Source of the DNA: a virus
Strand: one strand, 5' to 3'
DNA length: 26,444 bases
Virus record (IMG/VR): IMGVR_UViG_3300006916_000318
Span: 1-26,444 of that record
Position 1 is the first letter of the stretch, and every line of letters begins with the position of its first letter. The notes under the pieces were generated by a model that did not search any database, was not told where the DNA came from, and saw nothing but the letters and a program-made list of their open reading frames with translations. This document shows positions 15 through 26,244 of the stretch, one piece after another. The position numbers and the translations under genes are program-made.

Positions 15-377
15 ATGAAGATTGCTGTAGATAGTTTTGGTAGGCGCGGAGTGCCTGCTGCACAACGTCTGGAGAGAAAAGCAGTAAAAACGTTAATACG
101 AGATATGAACGCTGAAGCTCAAAAGTTGACAGACGAGCAAAGACAGCTACCGCTCGCGCAACAAGAAAGCATTATTGCTGCCAATCTGGCGAGTAGATAC
201 GACAAAGACAAACTTGTTGGCCTAGAGGCAGCATTGGATCAACACGGAAAGTATCTAAGAAGCGTGTTTGGATCGCGGGGAACAGATAGATATGACTCAG
301 CACTTGAGCAGTATTTACAAGAATTCCCTCATTTGAACTCGAACTTGTTCACTGAAAATGTTGCACCAAACTACTAA
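15..377 (+). CDS. Unknown 120-aa protein upstream of the giant protein
   Basis: I do not recognise this family. The protein is mostly helical and charged, with basic stretches near residues 10-30 and a Gln/Ala-rich middle; there is no signal peptide or membrane segment. Its stop codon shares one base with the ATG of the giant polyvalent protein (TAATG), so the two are probably translated together. A TAG lies at 10-12, just before its ATG, and could be the end of a further upstream gene. Position in the late block suggests a virion or virion-assembly protein, but that rests on context only. Confidence 0.75.
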   Translation: MKIAVDSFGRRGVPAAQRLERKAVKTLIRDMNAEAQKLTDEQRQLPLAQQESIIAANLASRYDKDKLVGLEAALDQHGKYLRSVFGSRGTDRYDSALEQYLQEFPHLNSNLFTENVAPNY

Positions 378-3300
378 TGGCGACACAAGAAGAGTTTATA
401 CAGGCTTTAATATCTAGGCTTCAGCCTCAAGGTACGCCTGCTGCTCCAACGCAGTTTGACCAACCCGAAAATCTACCGCCTACACAATTTGCGGCTCAAC
501 CGTTTTCAATAGGTCAGCCTCAAGCCGGTAGCCTTGCAGCAGGGTTTGTGCAAGATCAGGCTCCAGCACAACCCTTGATGCCACCTCCTACGCCAGAAGA
601 GCAAGAACGTTTAAACATTTTTGGCGCAGCAGATAGGGCATTCCTTCCTCCACCCCAGCCAGCTTCGGATGAAAGTCAAAACTACTTCATGCAAGTGGGC
701 CGTGGGTTGGGTCGTGGGTTCGCGCAAAGTGGATTGACCCTAGGACAAGGTTTGTTCGCTACAGCCGATGCTGTCACCAATGTTGCTGGCTATGAAGATG
801 CGATAGACCCAGAGACCAGCGAGTTTCTTAAAGGCTTAAATGAAGCTAGAGAAATCGTCGGGTATGAAGAAGGCGCTGTAGGCAAGATGGCTGAAGTCAT
901 AGGCAGCATGGGCACCTTGATTATACCGGGGCTAGGCGTTGCGGGAGCAGCAAGGGGCGCGTTGGCAGCGCAAGCGGCTGGCAGGGTAGAAGCAGCCAGA
1001 AGGTTGAAGAATCTAGGATACGGATTGCGCGGCCTGACGGGCGTTGTGGCTTCAGGCACTGGTGCTGGCACCGCGAACCAAATGTTGGAGGCGTATGCCA
1101 AGGCTGGGAATGACGTTACTAACGCACAACGTAACCTGTCTACAGCCTTTGGTTTAGGTATTGGCCTTACAGAATTACTGCCACTAGAAATTCTGTTACG
1201 AGGTATACCCGCCTCACTGGGTAGAAACGTAACAAATAGGTATGCGGTCAGGGCGGCACAAAACATTACCAATGCTGGTGCCGAAGGCGGTCAGGAAGCT
1301 GTCGCAGGCATCATGCAGGAGCTTGCAGCGCAAGGTAACTATAACCCCGACCAGCCGATAGGTGATTCGGCGTTAGCTGACTTTGGTTACGGGTCTGCCG
1401 CTGGCTCCATCATTGATGGCTTGCTAGGCAAGAAGTTCCGATTACCCAAGACTGAAAAGGCGCTGTCCGAGGATTACCAGAAGACAGAGGCACTGCAACC
1501 CCTCACCGAAGAAGAGCTTTCTGAGATACAGCGCAAAGAAGAAGACATTGCGTATTATGACGATGAAGGTAATCAGCAGGGCGGTCAGGTCGTAGGGTTC
1601 GATGATGACACTGTGACGCTATCTGTTGATGATGATCTCATCACCCTGCCTCGAAATCAGATGCCAGACCCAGACACAGGCAACTCCTTTGCATCTGATG
1701 CCGATTTGCTTACACCCCGATTCAAGATAGACGGTGAAGAAATAGGCGCAATGACTTTGCCTGATGTCGTTGATCTCAGGAACAAAGAGCTTTTGCCGGA
1801 TACGCTACGAGCAGAGGTAGATGCAGGCAACATAAGCCTAGAAAAAGCTATCGAGATGGCTAAGACCGATGACCAGCAACTCGTAGCCACCGTAACGCCT
1901 GACAAGAAATATCGCATCAAGGCGCTCACGCAAGAAATCAATCGTCGTGATCCAGAGTTCAACGCTTCTCTTTCAGAGGAAGCAGCAGACCAACAGTCTA
2001 GGGCAGCAGCCGGGGTCGATATAGATAGCGGTGAGTTCGGTGATGACCTAGATGCCAGTTTAAACGCAAGGGTAAGCCCATCGCTTACAGACACGGTTGT
2101 TGGTCGGACAGTTGGCGGGACTGTTGATCCGAGCATAGTCGGCAAAGATGCGCTCGATAAAGCGTTTAAAGCTGCTGGTGTCTCCAAGAAAGACCGAGCC
2201 ACCTATTACGAGGAAGTCGAAGCAAGTCCAGACGCTGCATTCGATAGTCTTAGTCAGGAACAAGTCGTTGGGCTTCTCGAAAGGGCATCAAGGCACAAAG
2301 AACGCAAAGCTGAAGAGAAGAGGGCGCAGAAAGAGCGAGAGGCACAAGCGGCTACAGAAGAGCAGATTCAGCTTAAAGCGCAAGAGATAGAAGCTGCAAA
2401 ACAACAAACGGTAGTTACACCAACGACAGGAGATCAAGCCACTGTCGTTGCAGAAGAGATTGCCGAGACTATCGAAGAGGCTCCTGCACAGCCTGCCCTC
2501 ACAGAGAAACAACAAACTAGAGCAGCTAAGTTCCGTAAACGTCTGGCTGATGCAGAAACACCAATAGACCGTATAAACGCTGCGGTGAGCATGATAACCC
2601 GTGGTCAAACAGATAATAATCCCGAATTGATTGCTGAAGGCGAGGCGGCGTTACGCGCAGCCGAAGCCGAAGGATTTACGATTCAAGAAGGAACGAGAAA
2701 AGGAGACACACGAACTTACAATGAAGACACAAACGCAGGCTTAACTAGAAGGGTATCTCGACAAAATACTCCTAATGACGGCGACATTGAAACAATAGAG
2801 AGCGTTCAAAAAGTAGGAATAATAAAAGATGGACGGTTGGTTCAAGTTTCACAAGCAACTACTAGTTATAAATCTCCACAACCAGAAGAAACACAAATAA
2901 CCCCAGAGCCAGAGGTTGTAGTAGAAGAAGCACCTGCGCCCGTAGGCTTTCAATCTAAAACTGTTGAGGACTCTAAGCCACGATATAGAAATGTAACGCC
3001 TGTATTTAACTCTTTGCTCGATAAAGCTCTGTACATAGTAGGCAACCCTAAGAGCAAATCTAAAGCCGATGAGCAGGTAATGGGTGAGCTTAGGTCATTC
3101 TTGCAGCAAAAAGCGCCCGATTTAGAAGATGCAAACATCCGTAGACTAGGGATGGCTGTACGAGATAATGTCAAGTATCAAGGCGAAATAGCTCGGAAAG
3201 CGGAACGATCAAGTTTCGAGGTGCAAGAGCAGGTATTGCCTGACGTTGACCTTTCTTCTCCAGACTTAATCGAATCAATACTAGATCGCTATCAAAAGCC

Positions 3301-6300
3301 AGCGGCTGATACCGAGCCTACTGCGTCTAAGCCTGTAAAGCCCACACTCCCCAAGACAGAACAGGTTGTTGCAACTCCGAAAGAAAAAGCAGATCTGAGA
3401 GAAGCCATAGGCGTGATGGCTGGCGATAACGCGAAAGCAATAAAGCTAGGAACCGAAGCATATCAACGCCGTCGAGATCAGGGTGAGAGCCACGAAGAAG
3501 CATTAGATGCGTTTGCACAAGATCCAGACTTTCAAGACGCTGCTTTAGACTTTGCCCGTAGAGAGCAGGGTGCAGAGCAAGTATCTCCGGGGCCGGTGGT
3601 CGGAATCGCTGGCACACAAACAGCCCCCGGCGTTCCGGGCATGTTGGTTCAAAAGCAAGGGCCACCGATTGACATCAACACAATCCGACGAATCAGGAAG
3701 ATTGTTAACGATGTAGCGCCCACATCAGATCTTGTTGTAGCCAGCCAGTTATATGGTCAGGTGGTCGATAGAGATGGCGATGTGCAATACGTCATCAACG
3801 GCAACGAGGTTAATTACGAGCAGGCTCTTGGTCTCCAGATGGGCAACATCGTCGGCGTATCTGTAGCGCCAGATGCCGTGATAGACCCAGAAAATAGGGC
3901 TTATCACGAGGCCACACACTTCCTTGTCAACAATGGCTTTATAACAGAGCCAGAGATGAGGTCGCTGATCGCTAACATCCCAAGGCTAGAGCAGATCGTC
4001 CTCGAACATCTGGGCCAGAAGCGATATAAAGAAGCTATGTCGGGCAATGAGTTCCAGAAGTTCAACGAGCTAATTGCATATGGATCAGCTCTATACAACA
4101 GGGGCTTAGATATAGATGGCAAGGTGCCAAAAGAGTTTAACCCTGCGCTACGCCGCATCTTCGCCAAGATTGCTAGACTGTTTAAACAGCTTAGATCCAA
4201 CTTTACTGGTGAATTTGTACCAATGGAGGTGGAGCAGGTCTTCGAGCAGATCCGTCAAGGTAGAACAGGACGCAGAGCGCCAGACCCACAGGCTACACAG
4301 CGCGTCAAACAGGCGATGCTTAAAGAAGATCCAACGGGTCTGAGCGCAGCGACACCTCTGTTTGTTATAAAGCAAGGCCCAGTTGCAGCTAGTTCATCCT
4401 TTGAAAACTTCAGAGGTGAAGTTCCCGCCAGACCAGCATTCAAGTCTGCGATGAAGACCAAGTTAGAAGGCATGACAGGCCAGAAGAAGCTGCCTGATGC
4501 TTGGGGAAGGGTTGAAGGCAATCGGGTGGTAGGCGCGTTGTCTGGCGTGAAAGTAGAAGAATGGAACGATTCAAACATAGAGGCATTCCTTACCAGCTTG
4601 CCTCCAGATAAATCAGTAAGCGGTCAAGAGCTTCTGGATTATTTCAACGACATCGAGCAAGTCGTTGAGATAGTTGTATATGGCTCTCCGCTTGGGCCTA
4701 AGAACGACTCAGACTCAGAGATAAAGTATCGTTCCGCTATACAAGAGGATCGTAATAACCAAGGTTACATAGCGACAGCTAACGATGCGATGACTTCTTT
4801 GCGAACTGGAAAAGGCAAAGACGTTGTAAATGCAATGCAAGTAGCAAATCTAACCCGCAAAGAGGTTCCAAACAAAGACGATATAAATCCTGCATATCCA
4901 CCTGATGTTGTCGATGCCCTAGAGAGCTACGCCGAAGCACTTAAAAAGCAAGATGCTTCATTTGACGATTTGCCTGACCCGATCCAAGAAAAGCAAAGGC
5001 TCATTACCGCATTGCAAAAATCGTTTAAACGAGATGGCACTTCATTGGATCAAAAGGCTTTCGGACTTACCTTGGTAGAAGCAAGCGTTAAGCCGGGATT
5101 CCAGTTTACTAGGGAGGCGGGTGAAATGCTTCCTGCTGGATTTAGTATGGACGATGGTGATTTGCCATTACAGAGAGGGGCGGGAACGGGTAGCGCATAC
5201 GGAACCGAGATATCCGATATACCTAACTTTTATTTCGCATGGACGACGATGGGCGGTAGGGCGATCTCAGCAGGTTCCCCTCGTAGCGGGATGAATTTAC
5301 AGCAAGACTACGGATATAGAGAAATAATAATCGCAGCGCCAAGTATGGCGGGTGATGGAACTTATCACAGTCACTTTCCTGACATTCGCAATCCAATAAT
5401 GCACATGCGTCTTGCCGATATTATTTTAGAGAACGGCGAGTCTGTATTGGTGATCGAGGAAATACAGTCTGATGTTCATCAGGGTGCAGCAGAACTAATG
5501 AAGCGAATGGCTGCAAAGAAGTTGTTTGAGGATGGCGCAATATCAGATAGCAGATTCAAGTTTCTGAACAGAGACCAAAAGAACTTAGTAAGAGAAGCTG
5601 CCTCTCAATTTAAAGATGATGTGTACGGCAAGGTATTTCCTAACCTGCCTCTCAAGAATGAAAATCAGCGGATAGCTTTTGCCATGCAGCAGATTACACG
5701 CATGGCAATAAACGGTGGGTATGACCATATCGCTGTGAGCAATAGCGAGCTACAAGTAGAGCGTTATAAAGACGAATACAAGGCTGCTATTGATGGCTTG
5801 GTGATGACGCAAGTTGCAGATGTCGGCGTGGATTCTGACGCTTTTGGTGTCCTCGCTGGGCAGGAAAATGTTTTTGCTGTCAATACAGAGCAAGGAACAT
5901 TCGAGGTATCAGAGACAGATGTTCGTATGGAGCTAGAGTCTTTGATTGAGCAGGACATATTAGCGCCTGCGTTTCCAGATCCATTTACTGGCTCTTTCCC
6001 TACACAAGAACAACTCACTGGCGAGGTCGCACCACAGGAAATCCAACGAGACCAAGAGGCTATAGATCAGGCTAAGGAAAATTCAGAAGACTCAGCAAGG
6101 AAAAGCGTAGCTCAAATTCTTGCTTTTGCTGCACAAAGAGGAAACCTGTCAGGATTCAGGGCTGCTTCTGCAAGGGCGGCAGATGCTGCATTGCAAGAAA
6201 CAGTCGATGTAGACGGGTTGGATGCGATTAAGCTGGCGTTTATGAAGGCGCTTCTCAAAGCTAACCCAGATATGCCTTCGTCATGGCTTGCCACCTACAC

Positions 6301-9300
6301 AACACCCGTTGTTGGCATGAATAATCAAGGCCAAACAGTCAGAGGTAATTTTCAAAGACAGACAATCGAGCTAGGCAATCAAGGCGTTACAAGATCTGGC
6401 AACCCAAGGCTAGATGATTGGTTGGGTGAAGATGTTGCTCTGTTAGTCCGTAATGACCTACAAAATCCAGAAACTGTATCAGACCAATTTGCTTCTCGAA
6501 ATTTTGTGCAGTTTATACAAAACAAAATTGCACAATCTCAAACACAAAAAGAACGTTTAAACGCTGGAGACAACGAACTTACATCTTATCAAAGGTCTGA
6601 GGCTGAGTTGATGGATGTGGACAGCATTCAAAGGTCGGTCAACAGATTTACAGGCGCGATAGATGTGCCTGTTGGCGGTGGATTCGATAACGTGTACGAC
6701 GAAAAGATACCCAGAGCTTTAGAGTCTGCGTTAGCTAGTCTAATTTCTACATCGAAAAGCCAACTCAAATCTAAGCGTCGAAGCGTAAGGCAAGATAATG
6801 AGGGCCAGCGCCTTTATCTAGGGTCGGGTCACTCGTTAGCTGCCGATATTGATGAGCAAGGTAGCCAAATATCAGCCGAGTTGTCTGATGAGATTCTTAT
6901 AGAAGAGTCTCAAATCGTGTCTGCCGATCAAGTGCAGTCAATGCCTCAAAGAGCGAGGTATGTGGGAGATGAATTTACAACGGAAGGTCAGGCGTTAGCG
7001 CAGGCAATAGGAGAAGACCCTTCAATGTTGCAGTTGGTGGGGGAGCAGGCTCAAGTAGATCCTGATACACCAGATCTTGCTGTTGAGGCGGAAGACGTGA
7101 GCCAGCGTTTTATGATCCCTGTATCTAACAGCCGTAATGCTTTGCGCGTTTACACGCTCACCCCGGAGATGGAAGCCTCGCCCAAAGTCCTCCAGCCTAG
7201 TGATATTTACTTCGCCAAATTGCAGAACGAAAGGGCCGAGGTGACTAATCACGGCACTGAGCAGCTACGCGGTGTGGCTAAGAACGCTAGGCAAAAGGCA
7301 GTCGATTACATCAACGGCATGCCATTCTTTAACACGCTTAAAGGATTGCCACAGAAGCGGGAGTTTTACCTAGAGCGAGCGAAGTATCTTGGCGTGGTAC
7401 AAGCATCCTCTGAGATAGGCACTGTGCTGCGTGACGAGATAGGCAATCAGTTCTTATTCAGGAAGGGTGACAAGAACAGGGGCGCTACAGAGACCCTGAG
7501 AACGTCGATTTTTAATTACATGACCACAGGTGACGCATCACAAGAACAAGCGTTACTGGAGCAGCTAGAAGCCTTAGACCCTAGGGCCGCTAAAGCCTCT
7601 GCAAAAGCTAAGGATATGATCGAAAGCCTAGGCTTGCAGATGGTGCAGAATGGTTTGATGGCACCCAAGACATTCTACGAGAATCGTAGGTCTTATCTGC
7701 CTCGAATATACCTCAAGCACCTATTACAAGATCCGAATCCAGAACGCTTTGGCTATCTGAAGAGAAGGAACGAGGAGCTTACGCCAGAAGATCAAGAGGC
7801 TCTGGGTGTCATCAACGAGCTAGACCCTGCATTCCTTGTGTCGCAAGCCATACAAAGACCGATCAGAGATCTACAGTTTATAGAGTTTATGAACTCGATA
7901 GCGGGTAACAACGCTTGGACGGTAGAAGATGACGTTCTGATGGTGAAGTACACAGACGTTAATGGTAATGAACAAGAGCAGAGTGGTTTATATTTGCTGG
8001 ATCAAGTGGCAACGCTGCGTCAGATAGCTGATGCGGTAGAAGCAGCCGATCCAAACAAGGCAGCAACCTTGCGGCGACAGGCGGAAGAGCTAGATCAAAC
8101 GGTGATTAAGACATTCACCGAGCGCGACATCATGGAGTATTACAACGAGCCTAACCGGGATGTAACCGGGGACACTCAGGGTTATGGTGCTGCGTTTAAA
8201 CGAGTTCCAAGAGGTAAGCAGTATGGCATGTTGTCTGGCAGGCTTGTCAGATCAGAGATATACGACAACGTAATCTCATCTGGATTCATGTTGAACCTTG
8301 GCGATCAGTCATACGTCAATATAGGTAGTAAAGGCAGGAAGCTGACCGCTATCTGGAAGACCATCAAGGTGCCTCTCAACCCACCCACGATTGCGCGTAA
8401 CACGTTCAGTAACGCGATCCTTATCCATCTATCGGGTGTCCCATTCTACCGTGTGTTGCCACGCATGATTGAAGCCACCCGCGAGATAGTTGCTTACAAC
8501 AACGGCGACTTCGCTAATGCCAAGCACTATCAAGAGATGCTGGCTCGTGGTGTAAAGCAGTCATCGTTTACAGATCAAGAGCTTGTCGCCATGCAAGATG
8601 ACATGCTCGACTTCTTAAAGTCTGTAGATGCAAAAGACTTAGGGTTGTTTGGCTGGTTGAAGCTCAACACATGGCAGCGGTTGGCACAGAAGGCCAGTAA
8701 TATCTATCAAGGCATTGAGGTGGTGGGTAAAACAGCCATCGCCATTGATGTCATGGATCGTCAAGGCGGCAGTGCAGACGATGCCTTTTTGAGAGCGCAG
8801 GAATACCTGTTCGATTACGGTGATGTGCCGGATGTTGTCAGAGGATTACGGCAAAGCCCACTGGGTATTCCGTTCCTGACGTTCCAATACAAGGTGCTGC
8901 CGGTACTAGCAAAGACTGCACTGCGTAACCCTATGCGATTCGCCCCTTATGTGGCGCTTTCGTATGCGCTGCCAGCACTGTTTATGAATGCTTTCGACAT
9001 AGACGATGATGATTATGATGAGATCAAGGCATCCATGCCCGATTACATCAGAGGCAATCCGGGTCTGATACCGTTGCCAGCCAGAGATGCCGAGGGCAGG
9101 TTACAGTTCTTGGATACATCTTACTTATATCCTTGGGGGTCGTTCACCAATCTCATCAATGGGGCTTTTGTCAGCGGCAAGAAAGCGGTTGGGGCAGGAA
9201 CACCGTTAGAGCAGGGCATTCAGCTTAAAGATATTTCAAGCACACTTGGCATGTTCGGTGGCCCCGGCTGGTCGCTGTACGACATAAGCCAAAACAGAGA

Positions 9301-9832
9301 CTCGTTTACAGATAGGCCCATCGTTAATCCGACTGATCCACTGTATATCAAGGAAGCTATCGAAAGACCTTTTTATAACAGAGGTAAGATCACCGATGCG
9401 ATGTTCTGGGCAGCGAATCAATACTTGTTGCCGGGGTTCTTGAACACAGAATACGGCGCGGTTTCTAAAATCAACACTGCGTTGAAGGGTGATAGCAAAC
9501 CAAATGGAGTCGCACCAGATACTCTTAATCAATCTATGTTCCGAATGCTTGGTTTAAACGCGATCACTCTTGACCCCGACCAGATACGTCTTTCGTTGCA
9601 GTATCTGGATAGAGAAGAAAGTCAAATCAAAACGGGTATCAACCGTCTGAAAAGAGATAAGACGTTATCCAGACCAGAAAAGAACAGGAGGATTAACGCA
9701 CACTTCCAGACGTTGGAGCGATATAGACTGCAACGCAAGGCTATTATCGAAGCAGCAGCCACCACAAATCGAGTCACCAATAAGCTCAGAATACGAGATG
9801 AAAGAAAAGCTAGGGAGGGGAATCGACCATGA
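377..9832 (+). CDS. Giant polyvalent protein (3151 aa) with zincin, EIQSD-type and LPD38-like regions
   Basis: This resembles the large polyvalent proteins of phages and conjugative elements, which are carried in the particle and thought to enter the host with the DNA. Order seen: Pro/Gln-rich tail (1-100); Gly/Ala-rich, partly hydrophobic region (110-350) with GSMGTLIIPGLGVAG; a small acidic beta-like segment (about 385-430); a charged coiled-coil stretch (about 638-675); a zinc peptidase motif HEATH at 1177-1181; a segment like known polyvalent-protein modules (about 1370-1480, GQELLDYF); a region with EEIQSDVHQ near 1693-1702, preceded by YREIIIA and followed by GGYDHIAVSN; a helical module with RRSYLPRIYL; and a C-terminal region from about 2660 with NPPTIARNTFSNAIL and FDYGDVPDVVRGLR, like LPD38. 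Some C-terminal segments are hydrophobic (APYVALSYALPALFMNAF). Seven GTTTAAAC sites lie inside. The gene ends in an ATGA overlap with the holin. Individual domain functions are inferred from family resemblance. Confidence 0.9.
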   Translation: MATQEEFIQALISRLQPQGTPAAPTQFDQPENLPPTQFAAQPFSIGQPQAGSLAAGFVQDQAPAQPLMPPPTPEEQERLNIFGAADRAFLPPPQPASDESQNYFMQVGRGLGRGFAQSGLTLGQGLFATADAVTNVAGYEDAIDPETSEFLKGLNEAREIVGYEEGAVGKMAEVIGSMGTLIIPGLGVAGAARGALAAQAAGRVEAARRLKNLGYGLRGLTGVVASGTGAGTANQMLEAYAKAGNDVTNAQRNLSTAFGLGIGLTELLPLEILLRGIPASLGRNVTNRYAVRAAQNITNAGAEGGQEAVAGIMQELAAQGNYNPDQPIGDSALADFGYGSAAGSIIDGLLGKKFRLPKTEKALSEDYQKTEALQPLTEEELSEIQRKEEDIAYYDDEGNQQGGQVVGFDDDTVTLSVDDDLITLPRNQMPDPDTGNSFASDADLLTPRFKIDGEEIGAMTLPDVVDLRNKELLPDTLRAEVDAGNISLEKAIEMAKTDDQQLVATVTPDKKYRIKALTQEINRRDPEFNASLSEEAADQQSRAAAGVDIDSGEFGDDLDASLNARVSPSLTDTVVGRTVGGTVDPSIVGKDALDKAFKAAGVSKKDRATYYEEVEASPDAAFDSLSQEQVVGLLERASRHKERKAEEKRAQKEREAQAATEEQIQLKAQEIEAAKQQTVVTPTTGDQATVVAEEIAETIEEAPAQPALTEKQQTRAAKFRKRLADAETPIDRINAAVSMITRGQTDNNPELIAEGEAALRAAEAEGFTIQEGTRKGDTRTYNEDTNAGLTRRVSRQNTPNDGDIETIESVQKVGIIKDGRLVQVSQATTSYKSPQPEETQITPEPEVVVEEAPAPVGFQSKTVEDSKPRYRNVTPVFNSLLDKALYIVGNPKSKSKADEQVMGELRSFLQQKAPDLEDANIRRLGMAVRDNVKYQGEIARKAERSSFEVQEQVLPDVDLSSPDLIESILDRYQKPAADTEPTASKPVKPTLPKTEQVVATPKEKADLREAIGVMAGDNAKAIKLGTEAYQRRRDQGESHEEALDAFAQDPDFQDAALDFARREQGAEQVSPGPVVGIAGTQTAPGVPGMLVQKQGPPIDINTIRRIRKIVNDVAPTSDLVVASQLYGQVVDRDGDVQYVINGNEVNYEQALGLQMGNIVGVSVAPDAVIDPENRAYHEATHFLVNNGFITEPEMRSLIANIPRLEQIVLEHLGQKRYKEAMSGNEFQKFNELIAYGSALYNRGLDIDGKVPKEFNPALRRIFAKIARLFKQLRSNFTGEFVPMEVEQVFEQIRQGRTGRRAPDPQATQRVKQAMLKEDPTGLSAATPLFVIKQGPVAASSSFENFRGEVPARPAFKSAMKTKLEGMTGQKKLPDAWGRVEGNRVVGALSGVKVEEWNDSNIEAFLTSLPPDKSVSGQELLDYFNDIEQVVEIVVYGSPLGPKNDSDSEIKYRSAIQEDRNNQGYIATANDAMTSLRTGKGKDVVNAMQVANLTRKEVPNKDDINPAYPPDVVDALESYAEALKKQDASFDDLPDPIQEKQRLITALQKSFKRDGTSLDQKAFGLTLVEASVKPGFQFTREAGEMLPAGFSMDDGDLPLQRGAGTGSAYGTEISDIPNFYFAWTTMGGRAISAGSPRSGMNLQQDYGYREIIIAAPSMAGDGTYHSHFPDIRNPIMHMRLADIILENGESVLVIEEIQSDVHQGAAELMKRMAAKKLFEDGAISDSRFKFLNRDQKNLVREAASQFKDDVYGKVFPNLPLKNENQRIAFAMQQITRMAINGGYDHIAVSNSELQVERYKDEYKAAIDGLVMTQVADVGVDSDAFGVLAGQENVFAVNTEQGTFEVSETDVRMELESLIEQDILAPAFPDPFTGSFPTQEQLTGEVAPQEIQRDQEAIDQAKENSEDSARKSVAQILAFAAQRGNLSGFRAASARAADAALQETVDVDGLDAIKLAFMKALLKANPDMPSSWLATYTTPVVGMNNQGQTVRGNFQRQTIELGNQGVTRSGNPRLDDWLGEDVALLVRNDLQNPETVSDQFASRNFVQFIQNKIAQSQTQKERLNAGDNELTSYQRSEAELMDVDSIQRSVNRFTGAIDVPVGGGFDNVYDEKIPRALESALASLISTSKSQLKSKRRSVRQDNEGQRLYLGSGHSLAADIDEQGSQISAELSDEILIEESQIVSADQVQSMPQRARYVGDEFTTEGQALAQAIGEDPSMLQLVGEQAQVDPDTPDLAVEAEDVSQRFMIPVSNSRNALRVYTLTPEMEASPKVLQPSDIYFAKLQNERAEVTNHGTEQLRGVAKNARQKAVDYINGMPFFNTLKGLPQKREFYLERAKYLGVVQASSEIGTVLRDEIGNQFLFRKGDKNRGATETLRTSIFNYMTTGDASQEQALLEQLEALDPRAAKASAKAKDMIESLGLQMVQNGLMAPKTFYENRRSYLPRIYLKHLLQDPNPERFGYLKRRNEELTPEDQEALGVINELDPAFLVSQAIQRPIRDLQFIEFMNSIAGNNAWTVEDDVLMVKYTDVNGNEQEQSGLYLLDQVATLRQIADAVEAADPNKAATLRRQAEELDQTVIKTFTERDIMEYYNEPNRDVTGDTQGYGAAFKRVPRGKQYGMLSGRLVRSEIYDNVISSGFMLNLGDQSYVNIGSKGRKLTAIWKTIKVPLNPPTIARNTFSNAILIHLSGVPFYRVLPRMIEATREIVAYNNGDFANAKHYQEMLARGVKQSSFTDQELVAMQDDMLDFLKSVDAKDLGLFGWLKLNTWQRLAQKASNIYQGIEVVGKTAIAIDVMDRQGGSADDAFLRAQEYLFDYGDVPDVVRGLRQSPLGIPFLTFQYKVLPVLAKTALRNPMRFAPYVALSYALPALFMNAFDIDDDDYDEIKASMPDYIRGNPGLIPLPARDAEGRLQFLDTSYLYPWGSFTNLINGAFVSGKKAVGAGTPLEQGIQLKDISSTLGMFGGPGWSLYDISQNRDSFTDRPIVNPTDPLYIKEAIERPFYNRGKITDAMFWAANQYLLPGFLNTEYGAVSKINTALKGDSKPNGVAPDTLNQSMFRMLGLNAITLDPDQIRLSLQYLDREESQIKTGINRLKRDKTLSRPEKNRRINAHFQTLERYRLQRKAIIEAAATTNRVTNKLRIRDERKAREGNRP

Positions 9833-21139: not shown

Positions 21140-21181
21140 AGCAGCTCCTTGTTGCGTTTAAACATTTTCAAAATTAGGGGG

Positions 21182-22705: not shown

Positions 22706-23530
22706 TTACGCTGCCTCGGTGTTGGCAGCGCATTCGTTCCAATGTCCCAGCACTGTATCCAGTGCCTCGTCCATCGTGTAGTAGCCCTTGTCGCCGTACA
22801 TCGGGGGGATGTACATGGCATCGGCAGGCAAGTCATCGAACTTCTTCACTCTGCCATAGCCGCTCACATATCCTGAGTAGGTGAACTCCATGATGCGGAA
22901 GCAAACTCGGCGCAACATGGATGGATGTGCCAGAGCGAAGGCGATGCGGTCAAGATCAAGCACTTCGTCAGCACGTTTGACCGTGATGAAGATGCGCTGC
23001 TCGTCGTGATCGTAGCCCTCGGTGTCAGATCGCTGGCAGGCAATCAACTCCACACGCTGACCAGACTGCTCGATCTGGTCGATCAGGGCGACAATGGCAG
23101 AGCCTTTGCGGATCATCGCGCTGGCCTCGGTGCTTGATGTGGCTCCGATGTCAGCGTAGATCTTGACGATGGGCATAGCGTTGCGGTTGCTGGTATCGTC
23201 CATCCAGACCATGTGATTCGGGACACCAGCGCAGTAGCTTGGGATGCAAGCTCGCTGACCGGCTACGCCGTACTCCCAATCAGGACGTTTAAACGATGCC
23301 TGCTTTGCCTTAGCAAACTCAACGCCAGATCCGATAGCGTCGCGCCCTTCGTCCCAGCCGCTGATCGCAGTCTGCACTGCATCACCGAAGGTGCGAGTGC
23401 CGTAGAACTCCTTGGCTTCGCGGCCCTCTTTTTTGGTGCTGGCTAGGCCATCCCAGCCCTCGTTGGGTTCGCGGTGCATGTCAGCCATGCACTCGTCCCA
23501 GCTTGCGTTGTACTCGATGACCTTGGTCAT
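22706..23530 (-). CDS. Partner of the CobS-like ATPase, possible degenerate vWA fold (274 aa)
   Basis: Near residues 121-165 it reads VKIYADIGATSSTEASAMI, then RKGSAIVALIDQIEQSGQR and VELIAC: a strand, a Ser/Thr turn, a helix and a strand, like the start of a von Willebrand A domain, but without a clear DxSxS metal motif. The N-terminus (EPNEGWDGLAST) and the C-terminus (YIPPMYGDKGYYTMDEAL) are conserved in phage homologues that sit beside CobS/MoxR-type ATPases. CobS acts with a vWA protein (CobT) in cobalt chelatase, so this pair may be a remodelling machine. It starts one base into the previous stop... the order is ATPase first, then this gene (TAATG). One GTTTAAAC at 23287. Confidence 0.7.
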   Translation of the reverse strand: MTKVIEYNASWDECMADMHREPNEGWDGLASTKKEGREAKEFYGTRTFGDAVQTAISGWDEGRDAIGSGVEFAKAKQASFKRPDWEYGVAGQRACIPSYCAGVPNHMVWMDDTSNRNAMPIVKIYADIGATSSTEASAMIRKGSAIVALIDQIEQSGQRVELIACQRSDTEGYDHDEQRIFITVKRADEVLDLDRIAFALAHPSMLRRVCFRIMEFTYSGYVSGYGRVKKFDDLPADAMYIPPMYGDKGYYTMDEALDTVLGHWNECAANTEAA

Positions 23531-24639
23531 TACGCTGCCTCCTGTAGTGCGTCGATGATAGAGAAGTCAACACCGTCCAAGACCTTGGTCTTGTCTGTGT
23601 CGCTCCAACCCTTGTCGAAGATCAAGGCGCTCATTACAGAGCGGAATGGCATACCAGCAGCCAGTGCCTTAGCGCCCTTGATAGAAGCCCTTGGGCTTAC
23701 CACAAAGCGCATCTTGTGATGCTCAACCTGTGCCCTGATCGCTTGCACCAGATCAACCCATGCATCATTGCCAGCGATGCTACGCTCTAGCGCCTCGTCG
23801 TATCCCATCGGGATATAAGCGAAGCGGTCAAGTGTTGCCGCATCCATTGGATTGCGTCCCACATACTGGGCTGATGCACCATGACCGAAGGTGTTGGCTG
23901 ATGCGATGATTCGGAAATCAGCGTGACGCTCGACCAGACCGCAGGGGAAACTAGCGAAGTCATTCGCTAGAGCAGCGTTGAGAGACAGCAAAGCGTTGGG
24001 ATTGCTTGCGTCCATCTCGTCCATCAAGACGAGACCGCCATGTTTAAACGCCTTGTAGAACTCGGTCTCAACGTAGTTGCCATTGGCATCGTTGTAGCCT
24101 AGGAACTCGAAAGCCTGACCGATAGCGCCGTAGCAGTAGAACGGAGTGTCCAGCGCCTCGGCTATCTGCTTTGCGATGCTGGTCTTACCAGAACCAGCAG
24201 GGCCGACGATATACGCTGGCTCACCCATCGCTACCCAATCGAGGACAGAGTGGAACACTTCGTGAACTCGGCCCTTGATCTGGATCGGATCGCCATCGTT
24301 GATGGTGATCTGGTGGGTGATAGTCTGCGTTGATGCAACCAGCGCCTTGAGATCCTCGATGTCCCCACGGAGATCTTCGATCACCTTGGCTGACATAGAC
24401 TCGATGTCACCCTGTGACAGCGTAGCAGCCCCAGCATTGGGGCCATGCAGCCATAGGCTGACCTTCGCCTCTTCGGGCATCGTGGCTGACATGCGGTACA
24501 TGGTAGCCAGCAGCGCCAGCTTGGAGCGATGCGCTGGGGTCACAATGTCGCCCTCTGACCGTAGGTCATTGAGAACCTTGCAGATTTTGTTAAGACGTTG
24601 GTGATGCGAAGCATCGAGTGTGGTAGTATGATCGAACAT
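23530..24639 (-). CDS. CobS/MoxR-type AAA+ ATPase (369 aa)
   Basis: A AAA+ machine that uses ATP to remodel a partner. Seen: Walker A GPAGSGKT (146-153), Walker B LVLMDEMDAS (Asp207-Glu208), sensor 1 Asn249 in IIASANTFG, Arg272 in LDRFAYIPMGY and the sensor 2-like VVSPRASIKGAKAL (Arg317). The 110 N-terminal residues contain a coiled-coil stretch (IEDLRGDIEDLKALVAS). Homologues with cobaltochelatase CobS similarity are widespread in phages; their target is not known. The leader GTTTAAACGCAACAAGGAG stands eight bases before the ATG. Followed at once by the possible vWA-like partner. Confidence 0.9.
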   Translation of the reverse strand: MFDHTTTLDASHHQRLNKICKVLNDLRSEGDIVTPAHRSKLALLATMYRMSATMPEEAKVSLWLHGPNAGAATLSQGDIESMSAKVIEDLRGDIEDLKALVASTQTITHQITINDGDPIQIKGRVHEVFHSVLDWVAMGEPAYIVGPAGSGKTSIAKQIAEALDTPFYCYGAIGQAFEFLGYNDANGNYVETEFYKAFKHGGLVLMDEMDASNPNALLSLNAALANDFASFPCGLVERHADFRIIASANTFGHGASAQYVGRNPMDAATLDRFAYIPMGYDEALERSIAGNDAWVDLVQAIRAQVEHHKMRFVVSPRASIKGAKALAAGMPFRSVMSALIFDKGWSDTDKTKVLDGVDFSIIDALQEAA

Positions 24640-24681: not shown

Positions 24682-25290
24682 CTAGTCAGCGACTAGCGTT
24701 CCGGCGAGGTGACATGCTGGGCATGTTGACTCGGGGGTAATCTTCGATTGCCACTTGGCTGACACTCTGGCGGTGAAGCCGCAGTCACTGCATTGCAGTT
24801 TGAGCATACGAGTGCCTTGCTTCTTGCGAAGCGATGGGTCGATCTTGGCATGGGGGTAAACCCCCAAGATGTCAGCGATCTCGGCCAGTGTGTCCAGCAA
24901 AGCTGGTGATGCGGGGGTTTGTGTCATAGGGCCAGTGAAGCCTACGGCTTTGGCGATTCGGGCAAACTCACCTCGGTGACCACATTCGATACCGGCCCAA
25001 ACATGAATAAATTCATGTAGCAGGATACGAAGAACCTCGACGGGTTCATCTATGATGGGGTTGATGCAGACTTCCATAGTTCCATCGGAACTGACACTTG
25101 CATCGAATGCCTGACCTAGCACGACCTTGCCGGTCTTCGACCCACGATACCCGATAGGGAAGCCGCAGGTGACTCGATAGCGTCGTGATTGCCAAGCGTC
25201 GGGTGAGATACCAGCACTGGCAAAGACCATCTCAAACAGTAAAACAAGCGCAGCTTGTAACCATTCTTCTCTAGTAGTGTATGACTGCAT
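24682..25290 (-). CDS. SprT-like zinc metallopeptidase (202 aa)
   Basis: The metallopeptidase core LLHEFIHVWAGIECGHRGEF carries HExxH and a further His about nine residues on, as in SprT/Spartan-type proteins; GEFARIAKAVGF follows. The C-terminus has a zinc ribbon, CSDCGFTARVSAKW with CPACH. Such proteins cut DNA-bound proteins in cells; the phage target is unknown. The ATG at 25290 was chosen because CGCAACAAAGGAG lies seven bases before it; the reading frame extends 27 codons upstream without leader. It is the first gene of the long leftward operon, downstream of the hairpin-rich region. Confidence 0.88.
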   Translation of the reverse strand: MQSYTTREEWLQAALVLLFEMVFASAGISPDAWQSRRYRVTCGFPIGYRGSKTGKVVLGQAFDASVSSDGTMEVCINPIIDEPVEVLRILLHEFIHVWAGIECGHRGEFARIAKAVGFTGPMTQTPASPALLDTLAEIADILGVYPHAKIDPSLRKKQGTRMLKLQCSDCGFTARVSAKWQSKITPESTCPACHLAGTLVAD

Positions 25291-25299
25291 AGCAGTTCT

Positions 25300-25728
25300 C
25301 CTTTGTTGCGATTGATGTAATGAACACAATCGAAAGCATTCTTTGAATGCTCTCTGTTGTATGCACAACATTCGTAAATCTATCGTCTCGTCCAGATAGC
25401 TTCGCTATCCTTCTGGTGCGCCACGGGCCTCATGCCGATCTGCGTTCACACCGAGCCGGTTTACGCCATTGACGATCTTGTTAGCCTCCAGAGTAGATGT
25501 CTCCCGACATCTGGAGGTGACTCCACCGCCCCGACATCCTTTTCCCAAGCCTTCGCAGAATTGCCTTGCACACAATTCCAGCTTGCTACGTCCCGATCCG
25601 CCGTGAGATCGAAACACCGATACCTGATCGGAGGTGGTCTACACCCATTCAGTTGCATAAAGCTGCCGCCCCGCATCCGGTTGACGGTGAGCTGACCTGT
25701 TGAGCGGTCAATCCGTCGATGCCCCACC
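25300..25728 (-). ncRNA. Hairpin-rich region, candidate structured RNA or long 5' leader
   Basis: No convincing gene lies in about 430 bases, but inverted repeats follow each other almost without gap. Examples (plus coordinates): 25335-25351 (AGCATTC/GAATGCT), 25355-25370 (TGTTGT/ACAACA), 25395-25409 (GATAGC/GCTATC), 25485-25517 (CCTCCA and GATGTC stems stacked), 25546-25585 (CAAGC outside, GAATTG inside), 25593-25631 (CCGATC/GATCGG), 25683-25717 (GACGG outside, TGACC inside). Read on the minus strand, loops become GGGA (GNRA type) and GAA closed by C-G, which favours that strand. A promoter-like sequence sits just upstream (25729-25758). It could be a stable non-coding RNA or a leader of the SprT-like gene. 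I do not recognise a known class. Confidence 0.5.
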
Positions 25729-25758
25729 ATTAGGCCCAGCTTTCGTTTAAACTGTCAA
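25729..25758 (-). promoter_or_regulatory. Sigma70-like promoter for the leftward operon or RNA
   Basis: TTGACA (minus strand, 25758-25753), 18-base spacer, CCTAAT (25734-25729, four of six matches to TATAAT). The spacer contains a GTTTAAAC palindrome directly behind the -35 box, which would put a bound protein in the way of polymerase. Transcription would start near 25722, just before the hairpin chain. Confidence 0.5.
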
Positions 25759-25761
25759 CTA

Positions 25762-25797
25762 GTTTTTTCCAACTGGGTTTTTTACCCTAAAGGGTAA
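25762..25797. other. T-tracts and inverted repeat TTACCCT-AA-AGGGTAA
   Basis: On the plus strand two T-runs (25763-25768 and 25778-25783) are followed by a 7-base inverted repeat at 25782-25797. GGG before the second T-run can pair with ACCC after it, an alternative to the ACCC-GGGT pairing. CCCAG at 25735-25739 could pair with CTGGG before the second T-run as a plus-strand terminator. Either a terminator or an operator between the leftward operon and the terminase gene. Confidence 0.4.
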
Positions 25798-25827
25798 GTC
25801 GAGGAGTTTAAACGGGTCGTAGGCGTA

Positions 25828-26244
25828 ATGGGTAAGCAGGTGACGGTGAAGGAGCGCCTATTTGCTAGGTATGTGGCCGAAGGCCGTACACAAGCAGAGA
25901 GTGCGCGTATGGCTGGCTATGCCAGTAATCCAGACAAAAAGGGTAGTGAGTTGGTTAAAAAAGCAGAAGTCGTAGACTTAATCAATCAGCGGGGCGCTGA
26001 ATTAGCCGAGGATCGGGCTGTTTCACTTAGTGAACACCTCGATACACTGGCCGCTTTGCGTGATGATGCGCGAGACGCTGGGCAATATAGCTCTGCTATA
26101 CAGGCCGAGCACCACCGAGGGAAAGCCTCTAGGCTTTATGTGGAGCAGCAGGCGGTGGTTCGTGCTGATGCCGACTCACCTTCGGTGATCTTGGAGCGTT
26201 TAAACGGATTGTTGTCTCGTGATCCCGTCGCAACGCAGGACTGA
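25828..26244 (+). CDS. terS: Small terminase subunit, Terminase_2-like (138 aa)
   Basis: This protein should recognise phage DNA for packaging and bring it to the large terminase subunit. The N-terminal part, KERLFARYVAEGRTQAESAR and MAGYASNPDKKGSELVKKAE, is the helix-turn-helix of the terminase small subunit family; a helical oligomerisation part (SLSEHLDTLAALRDDARDAG, QAEHHRGKASRLYVEQ) follows. The large subunit is expected to the right of the window. The ribosome site is unclear: GAGGAG lies 22 bases before the ATG and is followed by a GTTTAAAC (25806). Another GTTTAAAC lies near the 3' end (26198). Confidence 0.82.
   Translation: MGKQVTVKERLFARYVAEGRTQAESARMAGYASNPDKKGSELVKKAEVVDLINQRGAELAEDRAVSLSEHLDTLAALRDDARDAGQYSSAIQAEHHRGKASRLYVEQQAVVRADADSPSVILERLNGLLSRDPVATQD

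Follow-up and report, generated by a model that had tools for sequence, protein, structure and literature searches.

The window analysed here, a stretch of 26,444 nucleotides from the virus record of an uncultured marine phage, carries divergent genes at its right end. The small terminase gene terS (25828-26244; Pfam Terminase_2, E 5.4e-6) lies on the plus strand, and the minus strand bears a SprT-like gene (24682-25290, from the list of open reading frames), followed by a second gene for a CobS-like AAA ATPase (23530-24639; Pfam AAA_5, E 3.6e-10). The SprT-like gene is the first of the operon in this genome, and its product, which contains the zinc-metalloprotease-like motif HEFIHVWAG, had no Pfam match at E ≤ 0.001. 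Elsewhere, positions 377-9832 form a single frame of 3151 codons, the product of which is presumably a very large virion protein. Directly behind a TTGACA promoter, about 430 bases of the minus strand (25300-25740) run without a gene up to sprT, and it is here, at the head of the SprT-like/CobS-like operon, that the original prediction had placed a possible new structured RNA; the location on the minus strand is confirmed, and the RNA is borne out by strong covariation.

Homologues were collected from IMG/VR by a CobS search and then a wider one, by pattern scans, and by a TerL search with a nucleotide profile. Some 25 IMG/VR contigs carry the element in the same position, flanked by divergent terS and sprT, and in those branches whose flanks were read it sits there behind TTGACA. 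All are uncultured contigs of one clade and fall into six sequence branches, namely A (the window, L001-L008 and L011), B (L014, L016-L018, L020, L023, L026, L027 and others), C (L009, L010 and L283), L190, L205/L290 and L206/L287. Relatives L050, L053, L056 and L215 have the same gene order with a short terS-sprT gap and no RNA, indicating that the operon can do without it; the RNA is also absent from relatives with similar terS and TerL, and the covariance model had no match in the other TerL relatives searched. In the closest named relatives by TerL (DSL-LC04, 023Pt_psg01, HTVC027P and HTVC023P, 51-56%) the neighbourhoods differ. Two candidates (L030 and L062) and most new matches of a later pattern scan were rejected, either for want of the downstream GATGTCGG tail or because they lay in coding DNA. 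A pattern scan of GTDB DNA gave, among the matches listed, only scattered ones in unrelated genomes that look like chance, and the covariance model found no match in one whole GTDB genome that contained a pattern match.

The leader promoter comprises a -35 box TTGACA (25758-25753, minus strand), an 18-nt spacer and a -10-like CCTAAT (25734-25729). The predicted box stands, conserved in sequence and position in nearly all homologues (L007 has TTGACG), although a strict sigma-70 scan scored no promoter at TTGACA/CCTAAT. In most branches the predicted transcription start falls at or beside the 5' strand of the first helix of the RNA, P1. Downstream of the RNA and ahead of the first gene no U-run terminator was found; a hairpin that immediately precedes the ribosome-binding site (25332-25354, minus strand) has no real U-run and is not convincing as a terminator, and a hairpin resembling it recurs before the sprT ribosome-binding site in branch-A relatives with an inserted first gene. 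The operon is presumably an early one. At about 25784-25800, some tens of bases ahead of the promoter, lies a palindrome, TTACCCTTTAGGGTAA (minus strand), the arms of which change together in relatives (TTACCC/GGGTAA, TTAACC/GGTTAA, TTATAC/GTATAA); it may be an operator, or else form a hairpin within the leader of terS.

Between the -35 and -10 elements is a further palindrome, GTTTAAAC (25745-25752), a candidate operator and one of 30 copies in the window, which extend from 609 to 26198 (e.g. 24659, 25745, 25806 and 26198) against a Markov-3 expectation of 0.76. The copies lie both inside and between genes and are spaced more evenly than random (CV 0.53 versus 0.95, P about 5e-5). Related contigs of 42-60 kb, RNA-free ones included, hold 21-48 copies, with 0-2 of the reversed pattern; DSL-LC04 has none and HTVC027P one. 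GTTTAAAC has the look of a binding site spread over the genome. Upstream of several minus-strand genes (e.g. at 21156, 22170, 22676 and 24659), the repeat GTTTAAACGCAACAAGGAG sets this palindrome immediately ahead of the ribosome-binding site.

The minus strand from 25290 to 25760 folds at -161.9 kcal/mol, compared with -147.9 +/- 5.8 for shuffled sequences (z -2.41, with 2 of 100 shuffles as good), and the plus strand gives z -2.26. Taken alone, fold energy is therefore weak evidence for a structured RNA. P1 (GACGG/CCGTC) and, enclosed by it, P2 (UUGACC/GGUCAG) occupy 25683-25717, close to the 5' end predicted for the RNA. The conserved core, captured by covariance model R1 (25531-25645; cmsearch 138.6 bits, E 1e-33), comprises P4 (25645-25633), P5 (25631-25617), P6 with the loop UNACGGCG (25613-25592), P7 (25585-25546) and the tail AAAGGAUGUCGG (25542-25531). 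Fold and alignment further define P8 (25485-25517), a long hairpin CCUCCAGAUGUC...GACAUCU..UCUGGAGG that is replaced in branch B by a different, longer stem region. Beyond it, Domain 2 (25371-25480) consists of a closing helix CGUAAA/UUUACG, helices CUCG/CGAG and GGUGUG/..CACC, and the hairpin GGAUAGC GAA GCUAUC; branches A, B, L190 and L205 possess it, and in C and L206 it could not be recognised. All of these features lie on the minus strand. The three stems singled out at the start, at 25683-25717, 25546-25585 and 25485-25517, are real, being respectively P1/P2, exactly P7, and P8, as upheld by fold and covariation. The loops had been called GNRA-like, which is not a conserved property; those conserved are UNACGGCG in P6 and a UAGGC-like loop in P4. 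An extra segment with CCGGAUGCGGGGCGGCAGC, at about 25682-25658 and shared as the same insertion by L001, L003, L006 and L007 of branch A, resembles the conserved GGAUGUCGGGGCGGUGGAG, as if the core had been partially duplicated.

Compensatory change was measured on separate alignments of the core and Domain 2, where the counts of double changes refer to sequences and not to independent events. In a plain MAFFT alignment of the core (115 nt, 12 sequences), 10 of 28 pairs were changed on both sides and 95.3% of cells were paired, and no shuffle reached the covariation score. An alignment fitted to the model, which leans towards the structure, raised these values to 16 of 28 pairs and 96.4% over 16 sequences. 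Core covariation was 0.352 versus 0.102 in shuffled alignments, with 0 of 500 shuffles as high; for Domain 2 (15 sequences) likewise no shuffle of 500 reached the score, with 10 of 22 pairs doubly substituted, 99.4% of cells paired and up to three pair types per position. Sliding the structures along the alignments gave 0.014-0.095, compared with 0.241-0.425 for the true ones. All seven pairs of P6 are doubly changed in the model-fitted alignment, and stems as different as UCGAUC/GAUCGG, CGGCUC/GAGCCG, UGAC/GUCA, UGAG/CUCA and CAUCAUGU/AUGUGAUG all bear the loop UNACGGCG, the exception being L190, with a variant UACGGC inside a longer loop. P1 and P2, the strands of which were chosen by eye and then checked, pair in all six branches despite differing strand sequences (P2 as e.g. 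UGACC/GGUCA, UGGGC/GCCCA or GGAG/CUCC; P1 as ACUG/CAGU or ACAG/CUGU). P4 is nearly invariant, with one mismatch in L190, and hence without covariation support, and a possible pseudoknot (UCACGG/CCGUGA or CGUC/GACG) hardly varies in sequence. RNAalifold suggested that P1 pairs with the tail (CCGAC/GUCGG); branch C does not form this helix, which was excluded from the structure tested. A model trained without L205/L290 and L206/L287 nevertheless found both (E about 1e-22 and 3e-9), compared with E 0.015 for L206 from a sequence profile of groups A, B and C; these held-out branches keep the loop UNACGGCG and the tail AAAGGAUGUCGG, with nearly all of their stem sequence exchanged. Paired columns contain 46 G-U and 3 A-C cells, indicating that the minus strand is the RNA under selection. 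Compensatory change in excess of both kinds of control, shuffled and slid, together with the strand asymmetry, marks this as a structured RNA as opposed to chance stems. The comparative evidence is decisive here, with fold energy only suggestive; a stem density far above chance is thus only moderately borne out by energy, and the stems are upheld by covariation.

Rfam 15 (4227 families) gave no match in the window at the gathering threshold and nothing for 25280-25830 even at E ≤ 5, and no family matched the RNA region of L010 or L014. ARAGORN found no tRNA or tmRNA in the window, in agreement with the initial assessment, and the literature searched, itself partial in coverage, holds no description of the leader RNA. 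The claim of novelty is supported in the sense of these Rfam and literature searches. A coding gene was also considered and rejected, since no frame is common to all branches and the lengths of the indels are not divisible by three. Neither of the two outcomes that would have told against the original prediction, a lack of covariation or a conserved protein frame, was thus observed.

In most homologues sprT is the gene behind the RNA, but relatives L002, L004, L006, L003/L011, L290 and L287 carry one of four unrelated short open reading frames (40-89 aa) in front of sprT, downstream of the RNA, indicating that the RNA belongs to the head of the operon and is not tied to one product. These frames, which start MQ.RIDIRVD.., MSDQSG.., MNNDEG.. 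or MSMTYDD.. and are present or absent among relatives, are candidate early host-takeover or anti-defence genes.

Our first choice, tentative and somewhat short of an even chance, is that the element is a promoter-proximal, cis-encoded leader of the sprT-cobS operon in this clade of uncultured, tailed marine phages, about 350 nt long, that would act on transcription elongation of the whole operon. We infer its transcription, and its action on that of the operon, from its place and its independence of the following gene, with putL of phage HK022 as the model for the role. The leader would be transcribed from the TTGACA promoter, fold while leaving RNA polymerase, and act on the operon as a whole rather than on one gene. 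Its invariant loops (UNACGGCG and UAGGC) and tail (AAAGGAUGUCGG) would most likely bind host polymerase or elongation factors, allowing transcription to run through the operon, which would make it an analogue of HK022 putL in role and not in ancestry. The start at P1, the covariation, the recovery of held-out branches, the lack of a U-run terminator and the varying next gene are all consistent with such a leader, whereas a size and fold unlike put, the RNA-free relatives, the null sigma-70 scan and the missing Domain 2 in branches C and L206 count against it.

The same independence of the following gene would equally suit a trans-acting noncoding RNA of the phage, cut from the mRNA (e.g. at the hairpin 25354-25332) and working as a separate RNA or ribonucleoprotein on, for instance, a host RNA-binding protein, polymerase or defence system. 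Such release, doubtful when taken by itself, is ranked nearly as likely as an action on operon transcription. Its size and multi-domain fold fit, as do apical loops that stay invariant while stems are almost wholly exchanged, in the manner of protein- or RNA-binding sites, and the similar hairpin repeated before the next ribosome-binding site at an inserted gene is compatible with a processing site. However, there is no terminator, processing is only putative, and a location at the head of an operon is explicable without a separate RNA.

The position in a 5' leader and the conserved unpaired segments around the core could also be those of a regulator of the first gene, be it a riboswitch, a thermosensor or a translational control element bound by a protein, but this is improbable, given that the RNA persists when another gene takes the first place and that the core lies about 180-290 nt from the first start codon. 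A non-systematic look at alternative pairings revealed neither conserved pairing with the ribosome-binding site nor a terminator switch, and no Rfam riboswitch matched at E ≤ 5. An element acting as DNA, such as a packaging site or replication origin with covarying palindromes, would account for the place beside terS in a divergent intergenic region; we consider it very improbable, because wobble is tolerated on the minus strand only, nested long-range helices and whole-stem exchange under fixed loops fit RNA, and the element is missing from relatives in which terS and TerL are similar. Least probable of all is a small early protein or leader peptide from the invariant AUG-UCG-G, which opens frames of 12-48 codons (MSGRW.., MSALW.., MSELG..) and is accompanied by a frame, VFRSHGG.., common to branches A and B, since the peptides diverge after a few residues, the sole purine run, AAAGGAUG, abuts the AUG and in most branches is too near it to serve as a Shine-Dalgarno site, and the second codon is never another serine codon, indicating a constraint on nucleotides.

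Complex conserved folds are known from few phage RNAs, and from even fewer that head an operon. It is conceivable, if doubtful, that this one is a leader of new architecture that would grip the polymerase or the elongation machinery of the host on its own, giving protein-free control of a whole early operon, or that it is released to form a ribonucleoprotein directed against the host. A specific function is testable, since covariation pins down the fold, the invariant loops are open to mutation, nature offers relatives both carrying and lacking the RNA, and a modular cargo site lies behind it.

Among structured phage RNAs, the phi29 pRNA is encoded near packaging functions; unlike that case, the phages described here have terS and TerL, relatives with a similar TerL lack the RNA, and no Rfam family matches. 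GOLLD and ROOL are found in phages. As ornate large RNAs (PMC12286853) they are likewise of unknown function, and the leader RNA differs from them in being shorter, in lying in an operon leader and in having no Rfam match to either family. From its place immediately downstream of an early promoter, the antiterminator RNA putL of HK022 exerts its effect across at least 10 kb with no protein (PMC9378689). Both putL/putR and the leader RNA stand directly downstream of a promoter that is early, presumably so here, and ahead of several genes; however, put is about 70 nt with two hairpins (PMC9378689), whereas the leader RNA, at about 350 nt and at least eight helices, is some five times longer and unlike put in fold, with no shared sequence noticed. 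Whilst it matches none of the 4227 families of Rfam 15, the leader RNA is supported by the same type of evidence as the structured RNA motifs that comparative genomics has brought to light in metagenomes (e.g. PMC2864571), namely covariation in uncultured sequence.
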